DNA from: Erwinia sp. ErVv1
GTDB lineage: Bacteria > Pseudomonadota > Gammaproteobacteria > Enterobacterales > Enterobacteriaceae
Assembly (NCBI RefSeq): GCF_900068895.1
Contig: NZ_CDPK01000011.1
Span: 1 to 51,382, forward strand
Length of the DNA: 51,382 nt
Direction of reading: 5' to 3'
Positions within the stretch are counted from its first letter, which is position 1, and every line of letters begins with the position of its first letter. The notes under the pieces were generated by a model. It was not told the origin of the DNA, did not search any database, and saw only the letters and a program-made list of their open reading frames with translations. Shown here in pieces: positions 23,790 to 30,859 of this stretch. Position numbers and translations under genes: made by a program.

Positions 23790-24518
23790 ATGCTGCAAAA
23801 TATCCGAATCGTGCTGGTGGAAACCTCTCACACCGGTAACATGGGATCCGTCGCCCGCGCGATGAAAACCATGGGCCTGACCAACCTCTATCTGGTTAAT
23901 CCGCTGGTAAAACCCGACTCGCAGGCCATTGCGCTGGCCGCCGGCGCCAGTGACGTCATTGGCGAAGCGAAGATTGTCGATACGCTGGATGACGCGCTGG
24001 CGGGCTGTAGCCTGGTGGTTGGCACCAGCGCCCGCTCCCGCTCGCTGCCGTGGCCGATGCTCGATCCGCGTGAATGCGGCATCAAAAGCGTTGCGGAGGG
24101 GCAGCAGGCTCCGGTTGCGCTGGTATTTGGCCGCGAACGCGTGGGCCTGACCAACGATGAACTGCAAAAGTGCCACTATCACGTTGCCATTGCTGCCAAT
24201 CCTGAATACAGCTCGCTGAATCTGGCGATGGCGGTGCAGATCGTCGCTTATGAAGTGCGTATGGCCTGGCTCCAGCAGCAGGAAACGCCGAAGCCTGAGT
24301 ATGAGGAATCCCCCTATCCGCTGGTAGACGATCTCGAACGCTTCTATCAGCATATGGAGCAGATGATGGTCAGAAGCGGCTTTATCCGTGAAGGCAATCC
24401 CGGCCAGGTGATGAGCAAGCTGCGTCGCCTCTATACCCGGGCGCGTCCGGAGCGTGACGAGCTGAATATCCTGCGCGGCATGCTCTCTTCGGTGGAGAAG
24501 CCTAAGGGCGAAAAGTAG
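23790..24518 (+). CDS. trmJ: tRNA (cytidine/uridine-2'-O-)-methyltransferase TrmJ
   Basis: TrmJ uses S-adenosylmethionine to methylate the 2'-O of nucleotide 32 in several tRNAs. It has 242 residues (E. coli 246) and is a SPOUT-class enzyme. [20 protein letters not shown] is at the N-terminus, and the knot motifs [13 protein letters not shown] and [18 protein letters not shown] are intact. It precedes iscR by 165 bp, as in E. coli. Confidence 0.96.
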
Positions 24519-24546
24519 AGGTCGGCGGAGGGCGGAAAGCGGGCTA

Positions 24547-24621
24547 ATAGTTGAGTAAATTACCAGGTTAAATAGTTGAGTATTTTACTTGGTTAAATAG
24601 TTGACCAAATCACTCGGGAAT
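24547..24621 (+). promoter_or_regulatory. iscR promoter with three tandem 25-bp IscR-like sites
   Basis: The octamer ATAGTTGA recurs at 24547, 24572 and 24597, exactly 25 bp apart, each opening a 25-bp unit that fits the IscR type 1 consensus (ATASYYGACTRWWWYAGTCRRSTAT, from memory). The third unit carries TTGACC (24602), which with a 17-bp spacer and CAGACT could be the iscR promoter. I recall two such sites in E. coli; this has three. Binding of the [2Fe-2S] form of IscR here would repress the operon. Confidence 0.75.
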
Positions 24622-24683
24622 GGCAGACTTGCGGACATCATTTTGTTAAACCCCACCAGGGGACAACTGAGGTCGTTTACGCC

Positions 24684-25181
24684 ATGAGACTGACATCCAA
24701 AGGCCGTTATGCCGTTACCGCTATGCTTGATGTTGCGCTGCACTCTCATGAGGGGCCGGTGCCACTCGCGGATATTTCAGAGCGTCAGGGCATCTCCCTC
24801 TCCTATCTGGAACAGCTGTTCTCTCGCCTGCGCAAAAATGGTCTGGTCGCCAGCGTTCGCGGACCGGGTGGCGGTTATCTGTTGGGTAAAGCCTCGGATG
24901 CTATCGCCGTTGGCGCGGTGATCACCGCCGTGGATGAGTCAGTTGATGCCACTAAGTGCCAGGGCAAAGAGGGCTGTCAGGGTGGTCAACGCTGTCTGAC
25001 CCACGTACTTTGGCGCGATCTGAGTGAGCGCATTAGCGACTTCCTGAACAATATTACGCTGGCTGAACTGGTCAATAATCAGGATATCCTTGAGGTAGCC
25101 GACCGCCAGAACACCACTGAAAAAAATCGTGTGCCTGCCGGGCGCACGCATGAAACCATTAACGTCAACCTGCGTGCCTGA
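24684..25181 (+). CDS. iscR: Fe-S cluster-sensing transcriptional regulator IscR
   Basis: IscR is an Rrf2-family regulator whose [2Fe-2S] state represses isc and whose apo form activates suf in E. coli. It has 165 residues (E. coli 162). The winged helix (1-70) includes [20 protein letters not shown]. The cluster ligands Cys92, Cys98, Cys104 and His107 are all present in [20 protein letters not shown]. The C-terminal tail differs, as is usual. It is preceded by three tandem type 1 sites and followed by iscS after a structured 113-bp gap. It should therefore still sense cluster status, although the cluster-building genes normally downstream are missing here. Confidence 0.97.
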
Positions 25182-25194
25182 CGGTTGCTAAAGC

Positions 25195-25268
25195 TTCCTG
25201 CTGATTCCCGACTCCCCTTCGTGAAATCAGCAGGAACCTGTCGCCACACTGTCAGATTGCCCGACAGG
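25195..25268 (+). other. Two hairpins in the iscR-iscS intergenic RNA
   Basis: TTCCTGCTGATT (25195-25206) pairs perfectly over 12 bp with AATCAGCAGGAA (25225-25236). Directly after it, CCTGTCG (25237-25243) pairs with CGACAGG (25262-25268). In E. coli this gap also forms structure that protects iscR when RyhB triggers decay of the downstream message. No T-run follows, so termination is unlikely. Confidence 0.7.
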
Positions 25269-25294
25269 TTGTGAGCGATACGGAGCCGAACGTC

Positions 25295-26455
25295 ATGAAA
25301 TTACCGATCTACCTGGACTATGCCGCCACCACGCCTGCCGATCCGCGCGTGGCAGAGAAGATGATGCAGTTTCTCACCCTGGACGGAACCTTCGGTAATG
25401 CGGCTTCCCGCTCCCATCGCTACGGCTGGCAGGCGGAAGAGGCCGTTGACGTGGCCCGTAATCAGGTTGCCGATCTGATTGGCGCCGACCCGCGTGAGAT
25501 TGTTTTTACCTCCGGCGCGACCGAATCTGATAACCTCGCCATCAAAGGTGCTGCTCATTTTCATCAGGAAAAAGGGCGACACATCGTTACCTGCCAGACC
25601 GAACACAAAGCCGTGCTGGATGCCTGCTTGCAGCTTGAGCGCGAAGGCTTCGAGATAACCTGGCTTGCCCCGCAGCGCAGCGGTCAGATCGATCTCGCCT
25701 CCATTCAAAACGCCCTGCGTGAAGACACCATTCTGGTCTCTATCATGCACGTTAATAACGAAACCGGCGTCATCCAGAACATCGCCGCTATTGGCGAACT
25801 CTGCCGCGCGCGCGATATCCTCTTTCACGTTGACGCCACGCAGAGCGTGGGGAAACTCCCCATCGACCTCAGCCAGCTCCCGGTCGATCTGATGTCATTT
25901 TCCGCGCATAAACTCTATGGTCCAAAGGGGATCGGCGGGCTTTACGTGCGTCGCCAGCCCCGTATTCGACTGGAAGCGCAGATCCACGGTGGCGGCCACG
26001 AGCGCGGTATGCGTTCCGGCACGCTGCCGGTGCATCAGATTGTCGGTATGGGCGAAGCCTACGGTATTGCTAAAGAAGTAATGACGGCTGAAATGGCACG
26101 CATAGATCAGCTGCGATCGCGTCTGTGGCGGGGCATCAGCGAAATTGACGGGGTGTATGTGAATGGCGTTGCAGAAGGCGGCGCACCCAATATTCTGAAC
26201 GTCAGTTTCAGTAATGTTGACGGCGAGTCGCTGATCATGGGGTTGAAGGATCTCGCGCTCTCCTCCGGCTCTGCCTGTACCTCTGCCAGCCTGGAACCTT
26301 CCTACGTGCTGCGCGCGCTGGGGCTGTCTGAGGCGCTGGCGCACAGTTCGCTCCGTTTTTCGCTGGGGCGCTACACCACCGAAGAAGAAATTGACTATGC
26401 CGTTCAGCTGATCCAGCGGACTATTCGCCGCCTGCGTGAGCTCGCCGTGCGCTAA
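25295..26455 (+). CDS. iscS: Cysteine desulfurase IscS, lacking the C-terminal IscU-binding tail
   Basis: IscS takes sulfur from cysteine with PLP and passes it as persulfide to tRNA-thiolation, cofactor and Fe-S partners. ATG at 25295 ([20 protein letters not shown]) matches E. coli; an upstream in-frame start has no support. The body is collinear with E. coli, including the PLP lysine in [12 protein letters not shown] (about 206) and the catalytic cysteine in [15 protein letters not shown] (about 328). The protein has 386 residues rather than 404. After RLREL it ends AVR, where E. coli continues SPLWEMYKQGVDLNS and onward. That tail is part of the IscU docking surface in E. coli. No remnant of it is readable after the stop codon, so this is not a simple frameshift. 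A terminator and then pepB follow; iscU, iscA, hscB, hscA, fdx and iscX are not here. Confidence 0.96.
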
Positions 26456-26476
26456 GGCCATGCTTTTATGTCATTG

Positions 26477-26504
26477 ACGGGCCGGGTAAAACTGGCCCGT
26501 TTTG
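26477..26504 (+). terminator. Intrinsic terminator after iscS
   Basis: ACGGGCC pairs with GGCCCGT around a ten-base loop (GGGTAAAACT), followed by TTTGCGTTT. It closes the shortened isc transcript about 22 bases after the iscS stop. Confidence 0.75.
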
Positions 26505-26607
26505 CGTTTAATTGCGCTTTGGGTTAGACGAAAGCAAATAAAGGTTTATTGTAGTGACCGACGCATTCAAGACCAAATTCGATGAACAGCTCAAAAGGAG
26601 CCATGCG

Positions 26608-27891
26608 ATGACAACAACACCAATGAAAATAACACTGTCAACGACAGCGGCAGATCCACGCTGGGGAGAAAAGGCAACATTGACCAGCAACGACAGCGGC
26701 ATGACTATCCATCTTAACGGTGGCGATGCCCTGACCACTATCCAGCGCGCGGCGAGAAAAATCGATGCGCAGGGGATCCGGCACGTGAGTCTTAGTGGCG
26801 ACTGGGATCTGGAGAAAAGCTGGGCGTTCTGGCAGGGCTATCGCGGTCCCAAAGGCGAGCGTAAAGTCGAATGGGCCGATCTGAATGAGAGCGATCGCGC
26901 TGAATTTGATAACCGCCTTAAGATTATTGACTGGGTACGCAACACCATTAACCTGCCGGCTGAAGATCTCAGCCCTGAACAGCTGACCCAGCGCGCCGTC
27001 GATCTGCTGTCCGGCGTGGCTGGCGAAAGCGTGAGCTATCGCATAACCAAAGGTGACGATCTGCGCCAGCAGGGATATTCCGGACTGCATACCGTGGGCC
27101 GGGGATCGACCCGCGCACCTGCGCTGTTGGTGCTGGATTATAATCCGGGCGGGGATGAAAATGCCCCCGTATTTGCCTGCCTGGTCGGTAAAGGTATTAC
27201 CTTCGATACCGGTGGGTACAGCCTGAAGCCCAGCGGATCCATGGATTCGATGAAATCGGATATGGGCGGGGCCGCGACCCTGACCGGCGCACTGGCGCTG
27301 GCTATTGTTCGCGGACTGAAAAAGCGCGTCAAACTCTATCTCTGCTGCGCGGATAATATGGTCAGCGGCAACGCGCTGCGGTTGGGCGATATTATCCGTT
27401 ATCGCAACGGTAAAACCGTTGAGGTGATGAACACCGATGCGGAAGGTCGCCTGGTGCTGGCCGATGGCCTGATTGATGCCAGCCAGCAGGATCCGGAATT
27501 GCTGATCGATGCCGCCACCCTGACCGGCGCGGCGAAAACGGCGCTGGGTAATGATTATCACGCCCTTTTTAGCTTCGACGATTCGCTGGCTCAGTCGCTG
27601 CTCAGCAGCGCCGCGCATGAAAATGAGCCTTTCTGGCGTCTGCCGCTGGCGGAGTTCCACCGCGGCTACCTGCCCTCTAACTTTGCCGATCTGAACAATA
27701 TCGCGGCCCCGTCCCATACGGCTGGAGCCAGTTCGGCGGCGGCGTTTCTTTCTCACTTTGTGAGCCGTTATCAGCAGGGCTGGCTTCATATCGACTGCTC
27801 CGCCACCTACCGTAAGGGAGCGGTGGATCAGTGGTCCGCAGGTGCCACCGGCCTTGGCGTTCGCACGGTGGCTAACCTGCTGCTGAAATAA
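26608..27891 (+). CDS. pepB: Peptidase B (M17 leucyl aminopeptidase family)
   Basis: PepB is a cytoplasmic manganese-dependent aminopeptidase. ATG at 26608 is chosen because AAAAGGAG ends seven bases upstream. It then has 427 residues, the E. coli length, starting [20 protein letters not shown]. The metal-binding signature [16 protein letters not shown] is intact, as are [18 protein letters not shown] and [14 protein letters not shown]. In E. coli pepB is the last gene after iscX; here it follows the iscS terminator, so it needs its own promoter, which is not obvious. The gap to sseB holds a GGGCAGG/CCTGCCC hairpin. Confidence 0.96.
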
Positions 27892-29003: not shown

Positions 29004-29203
29004 AAAAAGCAAAGTGAATGAATTAACTCATGACTACTATGGGTGGCATGAGTCACTATTATGCCTCTGGCGTGAATAATTTCCATTTGGGTGGTGTAAG
29101 TCAATTAGCAATATTTACCTTCTTCTTTAATTTCCTTCATCCTTATGAATCGGCTACTTTCCTGCATCTTATGACGTTATCCAAACTAAGACGGAGAAAT
29201 AGA

Positions 29204-30859
29204 ATGAGTAGCTATAACTTGATTGATAAAACCGATACCCGATTCGAAACGTTAAAAAAGGGGTTTAATTTACGCTGGCCCGAGCAGGGCAGTGGGGCAG
29301 ATTATATTTATGTCTGCAACAACAGTGGAGACGTCCTCTCTGCGGCTAATGCCGCTCTGGCGCGTAATCAGCGGATTACGGTGCGCAGTGGCGGTCACTG
29401 CTATGAAGGCTTTGTCAGCAACAAGCTGGCGGCGGATGGGACGCCCCCCCTGGCGATAATCGATCTCAGCCTGCTGGTGGGGATGGATTTTAGTGAAAAT
29501 GCTGATATCAGCTCACCCTGGGATACCAGCGCAAAGTACAAGTTTCGTGCGGCAAGTGGTAATCAAAACTGGGACGGCACCGTTAATTTATACAAACTGG
29601 CAAACCGCTCTATTCCCGGCGGCTCCTGCTACTCTGTCGGCGCTGGCGGTCATATCAGCGGGGGCGGATATGGGCTGCTCTCCCGCCTGCATGGTCTGAC
29701 GGTCGACTGGCTGTCGGGCGTGGATATACTGGTACCGGCGGCTGATGGAAAATCGCTCCTGGCAAAGCACGTGAGCCTGAAAAGTACCGGAAGCGATCGC
29801 GATCTTTTTATCGCCTGTCGCGGTGCGGGCGGGGGTAACTTCGGAATTATTCTTAACTACTACTTTGCCGAACTGCCTGCTGCACCTGAGCAGGTTTATC
29901 TGCTGTCGCTGGCCTGGCCATGGAGTACTTTTAAAGACAAAGCGCACTTTGGTCAGTTCCTGAATAGCTACTGGCAGTGGTTTAACACCCATGATTCAGA
30001 ATGGAACAGCCAGGATATCACGAAGGCTAACGGTGGACTCTTCTCATTACTGAAGCTCCAGCACCGCTCCACCGGCGACATTCATCTGCTTATTCAGTAC
30101 ACGGGCAATGATGGCCGGGTGGACGGCAGCGGGCAGGAAAAGCCCTTCTCTGACTTCGTGGACACCATGAACAAGGCGGCTGGCGTCGTGCCGGATGTTA
30201 TTGAGATGGGCATGACGTATGGGGTGGTAAACGCTCAGGCTGAAAGCAAAAGAAAGTTCAAAGACGCGGTCAAGGATGCGCGGCTAATCGACTGGCTGTA
30301 TGCCACCCAGACGCTCAATGGCTCAGGGGATAACCAGCGTGGCAAATATAAATCTGACCAGCAGATTGGTAATTTTGGCGCAACCGAGATTACCGCATTG
30401 TGGGAAGGGCTGAACGGCGCAGACGATCCTCTCCTTAATCAGGCGCTGGTGCAGATCGACTCTTACGGCGGCTGTATTAATACCAATGATGAAACCACCA
30501 ACCCGACCTCGGTATATCAGCGCAGCTCGTTGTTAAAGGCGCAGTTCCAGGTGTACTGGACCGATAAAGCGAACGATCAATACTGCATTAACTGGATGCA
30601 GAAGCTTTATTCCGCCTGTTTTGCCGATCAGGGCGGCAAACCTTACGGTAATGATGGCCGCTATCAGGGGTGCTACATCAACTACCCCGACACGGATATG
30701 AAATATACCGCCGCCGACCATGCGAAAGTTGATCCAGAGTGGTTAACACTTTATTACGGGGACAAAGCCGAGAGTCTGGTGAAAACCAAACAGGCAGTGG
30801 ATCCCAAAAATCTCTTCCGCCACGAGATGTCCATTCCCCTGGTGCTGCCTGCCAAATAG
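29204..30859 (+). CDS. FAD-linked oxidase with berberine-bridge-enzyme domain
   Basis: This 551-residue flavoprotein has an FAD-binding PCMH-type domain (about 25-220) and a C-terminal BBE domain (YYGDKAESLVKTKQAVDPKN near the end). RSGGHCYEGF places His65, and GGSCYSVGAGGHISGGGYG places Cys142, at the positions that bind FAD bicovalently in berberine bridge enzyme and glucooligosaccharide oxidase. It therefore probably oxidises a carbohydrate or alcohol with O2. Many BBE-like enzymes are secreted, but no signal peptide follows the start at 29204, which has GGAG seven bases upstream. An in-frame ATG at 29030 would add 58 residues with a hydrophobic patch but has no good ribosome site. It lies between sseB and sseA, which are neighbours in E. 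coli, so it is an insertion. The substrate is unknown. Confidence 0.88.
   Translation: MSSYNLIDKTDTRFETLKKGFNLRWPEQGSGADYIYVCNNSGDVLSAANAALARNQRITVRSGGHCYEGFVSNKLAADGTPPLAIIDLSLLVGMDFSENADISSPWDTSAKYKFRAASGNQNWDGTVNLYKLANRSIPGGSCYSVGAGGHISGGGYGLLSRLHGLTVDWLSGVDILVPAADGKSLLAKHVSLKSTGSDRDLFIACRGAGGGNFGIILNYYFAELPAAPEQVYLLSLAWPWSTFKDKAHFGQFLNSYWQWFNTHDSEWNSQDITKANGGLFSLLKLQHRSTGDIHLLIQYTGNDGRVDGSGQEKPFSDFVDTMNKAAGVVPDVIEMGMTYGVVNAQAESKRKFKDAVKDARLIDWLYATQTLNGSGDNQRGKYKSDQQIGNFGATEITALWEGLNGADDPLLNQALVQIDSYGGCINTNDETTNPTSVYQRSSLLKAQFQVYWTDKANDQYCINWMQKLYSACFADQGGKPYGNDGRYQGCYINYPDTDMKYTAADHAKVDPEWLTLYYGDKAESLVKTKQAVDPKNLFRHEMSIPLVLPAK

Follow-up and report, generated by a model that had tools for sequence, protein, structure and literature searches.

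Most bacteria build their iron-sulfur clusters with a single system, usually SUF, and the enterobacteria are the two-system case, in which ISC does the housekeeping and SUF serves under stress (PMC11559095; this and the other papers given by PMC number are cited for the excerpts available). The locus described here shares with the E. coli K-12 isc operon the adjacency of iscR and iscS, trmJ and pepB as neighbours and IscR-like sites upstream; what it lacks by comparison are the six genes from iscU to iscX, the tail of IscS and, in the genome at large, cyaY. In Mycobacterium tuberculosis the suf operon is complete and isc is reduced to iscS (PMC10848736, PMC8300815). SUF is the main system there, as it probably is here, and in both IscS is kept without IscU, IscA, HscA and HscB. 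According to the same excerpts, however, no other isc gene neighbours iscS in M. tuberculosis, and its suf locus includes sufR but not sufA, whereas here iscS stays with iscR and the suf operon is of the E. coli SufABCDSE type. With SUF-only bacteria as described in the excerpts the likeness would be that of a single cluster system, SUF; the difference is that the SUF-only state appears here to have arisen within the two-system Enterobacterales, more than once, and that an iscRS residue stays, along with fossils in four relatives.

The window, by which we mean the whole stretch of 51,382 nucleotides that was analysed, comes from Erwinia sp. ErVv1 (contig NZ_CDPK01000011.1, positions 1 to 51,382), and the features of the locus all lie on its forward strand. 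The left border of the locus is trmJ (23790-24518), which is also the neighbour in E. coli and whose product is 83% identical to E. coli TrmJ. Three tandem 25-bp candidate sites resembling IscR type-1 sites (24547-24571, 24572-24596 and 24597-24621) lie upstream of iscR (24684-25181; 165 residues; TIGR02010 221.5 bits, cut-off 207.55), in which the ligands C92, C98, C104 and H107 are present. Then comes iscS (25295-26455; 386 residues; TIGR02006 662.7 bits, cut-off 643.2), in which the residues for catalysis and for TusA contact are present and the C-terminal IscU-binding tail is missing. An alternative GTG start for iscS may lie at 25271, besides the ATG at 25295. The right border of the lost segment is pepB (26608-27891; 427 residues, ATG start; NF003450 745.3 bits, cut-off 437). 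With E. coli K-12 proteins taken from NC_000913 as tblastn queries, the window matched TrmJ, IscR, IscS, PepB and SseB in that order (83, 76, 79, 75 and 67% identity) and gave no match to IscU, IscA, HscB, HscA, Fdx or IscX.

The preliminary description had read this region as an isc locus cut down to iscR and iscS, and the order trmJ, iscR, iscS, pepB agrees with it, as does the distance from the iscS stop to the pepB start, which is exactly the 152 bases it gave (26456-26607); this is the place of iscU-iscA-hscB-hscA-fdx-iscX in E. coli. Its statement that the gap contains no coding remnant was borne out for iscX, since alignment against the iscX of an ISC-bearing congener (G397) gave background only (z 1.2). 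The terminator it placed there has a counterpart in a terminator-like hairpin 3' of iscS (26476-26501; 10 pairs, 7 of them G-C, with a T-rich tail), but the consensus scan that found it returned 3 such sites in 24500-26650 against a shuffle mean of 2.1, and with a count so near the shuffle mean the scan is by itself no proof. IscR and IscS, which it called intact, both exceed their NCBIfam equivalog cut-offs, but IscS ends at residue 386, whereas that of E. coli has 404. A new terminator after iscS was rejected as a mark of loss, being too loose (21 of 45 ISC− loci and 3 of 19 ISC+ loci).

The reduction of isc runs through the lineage, with several losses, and is not the oddity of one genome. 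IscU is missing from 36 of the 37 genomes of the genus; IscU, HscB and CyaY are each found in one genome only, G397, which has the whole isc operon between iscR and pepB, and IscS is found in 37/37. The genus of the window includes Erwinia persicina. In 36/36 ISC-less genomes pepB follows about 102-317 bases after iscS, and iscR stands ahead of iscS in 35 of them, the thirty-sixth (L154) ending at a contig edge. A genome of the same species as ErVv1 that is assembled in 2 contigs, G222, has the same iscS-pepB gap and no IscU. Because 36 of 37 genus genomes, this two-contig assembly included, are without IscU, we dismiss an assembly gap; chance and assembly error are in practice excluded.

Beyond the genus, IscU was found in 277 genomes of a family sample of 392 and in none of the other 115. 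Twenty of these IscU-negatives comprise ten at 2.0 Mb or less, which are probably endosymbionts, and ten at 4.2-5.2 Mb, five of which belong to other genera. A scan for IscS in named genomes was analysed for its best 80 loci. Among these, iscU is present in 69, and iscR, iscS and pepB follow one another without a detected isc gene between them in 9: all five Pantoea-named loci among the best 80 (P. anthophila, P. agglomerans, P. stewartii, Pantoea sp. Eser and Pantoea sp. IMH), Erwinia persicina, an Erwinia MAG, Enterobacterales bin_27 (a MAG) and Lonsdalea quercina (Pectobacteriaceae). L109 ends at a contig edge, and L114 has no detectable iscU yet has iscA to iscX. The complete P. agglomerans chromosome NZ_CP090207.1 has the same local iscR-iscS-pepB order. 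The operon is kept in Mixta and Tatumella; in Erwinia sp. OLFS4 the genes from iscU to fdx are still there and iscX was not detected. The named-genome and genus samples overlap, as three named-genome loci (L048, L049 and L054) coincide at zero branch length with genus genomes (L143 = G411, L144 = G404 and L152 = G418).

The ErVv1 genome is a 4.72 Mb draft in 72 contigs with an estimated completeness of 100%. The preliminary description had reasoned that clusters must come either from Suf or from isc genes moved elsewhere, and the genome-wide search sustains the first of these: the sufABCDSE operon is complete (G000:C3, locus L034; 65-88% identity to E. coli), ErpA and NfuA are encoded, and IscU, HscB and the isc ferredoxin were not found, so that their relocation is ruled out at the sensitivity of the profiles. 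There were no matches in the genome to NifU_N (PF01592) for IscU, to HSCB_C (PF07743) for HscB or to fdx_isc (TIGR02007) for the isc ferredoxin, the last being without a match in G222 as well; E. coli, whose IscU was found, and G397 served as positive controls for these searches. None of the three A-type (PF01521) matches genome-wide is IscA, these being ErpA, SufA and NfuA by NCBIfam. IscX was sought in the window, where no match to it turned up. The best match to the HscA model TIGR01991 reached 623.6 bits, under the cut-off of 708.55, and comes from DnaK, which scores 1024.9 bits with the DnaK model and also passes the loose HscA subfamily cut-off NF003520 (631.3 vs 620 bits). G397 has a true HscA at 886.4 bits plus the counterpart of this DnaK at 621 bits, and in G222 the matches to the HscA model are also under the cut-off. 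TusA and ThiI are encoded in both ErVv1 and G222; the ErVv1 ThiI has a Pfam match well over the cut-off, and a partial stretch of it scored 259.9 against an NCBIfam cut-off of 264.5. From this gene content we infer that SUF would make all of the clusters.

Traces of how the operon was lost survive in four relatives (L121, L122, L125 and L128), where remnants of iscX lie between iscS and pepB in the expected place and on the expected strand (tblastn E 4e-8 to 4e-5; DNA alignment z 12-24 against shuffles). Those of L121 and L125 carry stop codons and an internal deletion; in L122 and L128 the match is confined to roughly the first 40 of the 66 residues, with no start codon ahead of it. The gap test covered 29 iscS-pepB gaps with 40 mononucleotide shuffles each, and weaker iscX signals (z 3.6-6.5) in six of them (L120, L131, L139, L146, L150 and L061) were not taken as proof. 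The Lonsdalea gap, compared with the Samsonia operon by tblastn and blastn, gave nothing convincing. On a tree of IscR and PepB (37 rows chosen from 64, IscS excluded), G397 with its full operon is sister to the four fossil-bearing relatives with support of 100/95. The fewest state changes on this tree number 5, their direction unspecified, with 12 of the 34 inner branches open. Forcing the 19 Erwiniaceae ISC− rows together, a group chosen after the first tree, cost 31.1 in lnL (p-AU 0.046), which is borderline evidence against a single Erwiniaceae ISC− clade. The proteins of the G397 operon cluster with those of Mixta, Tatumella and OLFS4 at 100/100, and this favours inheritance over regain. 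Given the fossils, the tree, the constraint test and this last grouping, we place, on present evidence, one loss in Lonsdalea, one in bin_27 and one, more likely two or more, in Erwiniaceae. Loss is on these comparisons recurrent, having struck Pantoea/Erwinia, the fossil clade, Lonsdalea and one MAG.

The C-terminal tail of E. coli IscS contributes to the interface with IscU, whose binding is reduced when residues 374-404 are removed; L386R and M389R do not abolish it (PMC2854127). The tail motif LW(E/D)M(F/Y)K.GVD...IEW.HH is present in 19/19 near ISC+ rows and in 0/45 ISC− rows, and in each of the 42 distinct IscS sequences taken from loci without IscU the IscU-binding tail has been lost or has degenerated; these sequences come mostly from one family and are non-independent. 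As a control for divergence we used 51 distant ISC+ IscS sequences (Vibrio, Shewanella, Aeromonas, Pasteurellaceae and others), whose mean identity to E. coli IscS is 0.791, as compared with 0.797 for the ISC− sequences. We called a position relaxed if it was at least 95% conserved in the near (19) and the distant (51) ISC+ sequences and retained by no more than 60% of the 42 ISC− sequences. Among the 198 positions so conserved, those relaxed were 6/11 in residues 380-404, 5/20 in residues 85-116 (F89, Y90, K95, K101 and R112) and 4/167 elsewhere (K221, E227, E309 and L342). For the tail alone the Fisher p is 2e-5, the rows being related; for the tail and residues 85-116 jointly it is 2e-7, with the same relatedness and with 85-116 named after inspection. 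IscS-like second copies in G395, G396 and G399 were set aside, the two that were scanned (G395 and G399) falling under the IscS cut-off.

The partner surfaces of IscS have fared unequally. In E. coli, R112E reduces IscX binding, the 220-227 patch serves both IscX and CyaY, and R225E/E227R abolishes the binding of CyaY and IscX and not that of ThiI (PMC2854127); K101 is near a second IscX site (PMC5801593). In the ISC− sequences this IscX/CyaY patch is relaxed. Ferredoxin is bound by arginines 220, 223 and 225, with K101 dispensable (PMC3750173), and as these arginines are kept in 42, 34 and 36 of the 42 ISC− sequences, the Fdx footprint has been relaxed in part only. TusA binding is abolished in E. 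coli by W45R/E49A/D52A, F89 and R116 affect the binding of ThiI, and mutation of S326 or L333 harms the IscU branch (PMC2854127). At the TusA site W45, E49, D52 and R55 are found in 42/42 ISC− sequences and D65 in 41/42 (one D65E). The ThiI footprint is imperfectly kept, in that F89 and R116 are lost in some rows (present in 21 and 32 of 42), with R340 in 40 and R220, R237 and M239 in 42/42. S326 and L333, read by eye, are still in the IscS of the window. The nine catalytic/PLP residues, Cys328, Lys206 and His104 among them, are kept in 42/42. Only K95R and E309D are typical of ISC− IscS at a 70% threshold, and so there is no sign of a newly conserved surface. On the whole, the pattern looks as would be expected if the ISC partners had been lost and the thiolation partners kept.

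Frataxin has gone the same way, cyaY being missing from the same 36 genus genomes as IscU; the two G397 loci share a contig and stand far apart on it, cyaY at 3.87 Mb and isc at 1.12 Mb. According to the excerpts of PMC4440780, every genome with cyaY also has iscU. CyaY and IscU likewise go together here; the difference from that report is that the dependence shows up as the two being absent together within one genus, in 36/36. CyaY binds and strongly inhibits SufS/SufSE in E. coli (PMC11446229). Such inhibition may have been a reason for the loss of CyaY beyond disuse.

In IscR, residues C92, C98, C104 and H107, which we take to be the three cysteines and the histidine that ligate its [2Fe-2S] cluster, are present in 44/44 ISC− and 19/19 ISC+ sequences. 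Type-1-like sites were sought at a threshold of 5 mismatches to the 25-bp consensus, and the numbers are raw match counts: before iscR there are two in 18 of 19 ISC+ loci and three in the other, and among 44 ISC− loci three in 34, four in 1, two in 8 and one in 1. In the suf promoter one identical 25-base stretch, which fits the IscR type-2 site pattern, recurs in 17 of the 19 genus genomes examined, and a 13-base Fur-box core overlaps it. In a set of 30 of the 38 SufB genomes plus E. coli, with G107 (81% complete) set apart, matches to this core number 10-13 in 9 ISC+ and 7-12 in 21 ISC− rows (p 0.039, uncorrected for kinship), ranges that overlap, the ISC− genome G020 keeping 11/13. This is suggestive only, but the Fur box in the suf promoter may be weaker in ISC− rows.

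Starting from what was observed, namely the absent genes, the lost tail, relaxation at specific sites, the fossils and the recurrence, we think it very likely that this lineage has abandoned ISC and is a SUF-only enterobacterium, in which IscS serves thiolation of tRNA and cofactors and IscR controls iscRS and probably suf. The isc operon would have been pruned to iscR-iscS after the lineage gave up the ISC machine, leaving SUF, made up of SufABCDSE and served by ErpA and NfuA as carriers, as the sole cluster assembly system found in a search that covered ISC and SUF components and, through NifU_N, NIF-type scaffolds; a further desulfurase route by CsdA/CsdE may exist. IscS would have been kept as sulfur donor for TusA and ThiI, and hence for tRNA s2U and s4U, thiamine and molybdopterin, and would feed thiolation only. 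IscR, presumably loaded by SUF, would have been kept as a [2Fe-2S] sensor that acts on its own promoter and, probably, on suf. Once IscU, IscX and Fdx had disappeared, constraint on the IscS tail and on the patch for IscX and CyaY would have fallen away, and CyaY would have been lost as well.

Other readings have to be set against this one. That six genes were simply dropped from a draft by an assembly or binning artefact is scarcely credible: the 72 contigs of the ErVv1 assembly might invite the thought, but the region is internal to a single contig, the two-contig genome of the same species likewise passes from iscS to pepB and is without IscU, the other ISC-less genus genomes and the complete P. 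agglomerans chromosome agree, and the gap of four relatives holds iscX fossils. It is also very improbable that a complete or diverged iscU-hscBA-fdx set has moved elsewhere in the genome. Operon relocation is common in principle, and the DnaK that passes the loose HscA cut-off could be taken for a part of such a set; against this, the NifU_N, HSCB_C and fdx_isc profiles found nothing in a genome estimated as complete while their controls were positive, and the HSP70 in question is DnaK, with its counterpart in G397 standing beside a true HscA.

The borderline constraint test and the change counts, which are blind to gain versus loss, would suit a history in which Erwiniaceae lost the operon once, early on, and G397 or other members that now have ISC regained it whole. 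We regard this history as improbable, in that the G397 operon sits in the ancestral place from iscR to pepB with proteins that group with those of Mixta, Tatumella and OLFS4, and the distant position of cyaY means that regain would need two insertions. A little less improbable, but still unlikely, is the reading in which ISC was streamlined and IscS still builds clusters without IscU, giving its sulfur straight to SufBC2D or to client proteins. In M. tuberculosis IscS reportedly contributes to cluster enzymes (PMC10848736, PMC8300815), and iscS is here still beside iscR, behind IscR-like sites. Speaking against it are the presence of both SufS and SufE, the TusA surface as the best-kept surface of IscS, and the lack of any new conserved surface beyond K95R and E309D.

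IscS without ISC is already known from M. tuberculosis; for the enterobacterial case we found no report of isc loss in Erwinia or Pantoea among the papers listed by full-text searches of openly available articles, and a genome survey may hold it. The excerpts of PMC2682760, PMC3694032 and PMC8593673 have no bearing on isc loss. A paper on an iscR deletion in Pantoea stewartii discusses suf as a second pathway and follows the E. coli model of IscR (PMC8882988); in its available text the terms 'isc operon' and 'iscS' are absent and isc loss is unmentioned.

The abandonment of ISC may be part of something wider. We offer, tentatively and at somewhat less than even confidence, the idea that free-living enterobacteria have repeatedly swapped housekeeping ISC for SUF and that the swap leaves a fixed signature: decay of iscU-iscX, loss of frataxin (perhaps as SufSE-inhibiting CyaY harms a SUF-only cell), melting of the IscS tail with the TusA surface frozen as IscS turns into a desulfurase for thiolation alone, the gain of a further IscR site ahead of iscR, and IscR taking over suf as the Fur box weakens. 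The two-system rule is, in any case, broken by 36 of 37 genomes of this genus and by all five Pantoea-named loci among the best 80. The lineage is a natural test of what each part does. The role of the IscS tail and any useful role of frataxin alongside SUF are testable in it, as is the need of Fur for IscU in obtaining its [2Fe-2S] cluster, which has been claimed for E. coli (PMC11001641).

Upstream of iscR, the window carries 25-bp IscR-like sites in tandem (24547-24621), and the number of such sites was compared across 63 iscR upstream regions. Three tandem copies precede iscR in 34 of the 44 ISC-less loci, which are those without IscU, and two copies precede it in 18 of the 19 loci that retain the operon. 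On the basis of these sequences, it is possible that the extra copy reflects a promoter duplication tied to isc loss.

We also compared the suf promoter region of the same genome (L034, 2050-2310) with those of loci L161-L190. The element ATCCCTGCAAAACAAGAGGTTGAAG upstream of sufA is unchanged in 17/19 genomes of the genus examined, and the Fur-box core adjoining it differs among the promoters compared; the core was not seen in the suf promoters of G004 (L186) and G026 (L190), two further ISC-less members of the family (7/13 matches).

An additional IscS/NifS-like desulfurase (45-50% identity) is encoded in three genomes of the genus, G395, G396 and G399 (L158, L159 and L160, respectively); the two of these proteins that were scanned, from L158 and L160, score under the IscS cut-off. 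Downstream of sseB in the window, a 609-aa ORF (29030-30859) matches Pfam BBE and FAD_binding_4, both above cut-off, and its predicted product is a berberine-bridge-type oxidase; no such gene was found next to sseB in the E. coli K-12 stretch (NC_000913).

In L114, from a gammaproteobacterial MAG, iscA to iscX directly follow iscS and iscU is undetectable, an absence that could be genuine or a gap. In the Lonsdalea quercina locus (L061, 9206-10014), isc genes are undetectable in the approximately 800 bp separating iscS from pepB, and this interval perhaps represents a more recent isc loss that is still in progress.
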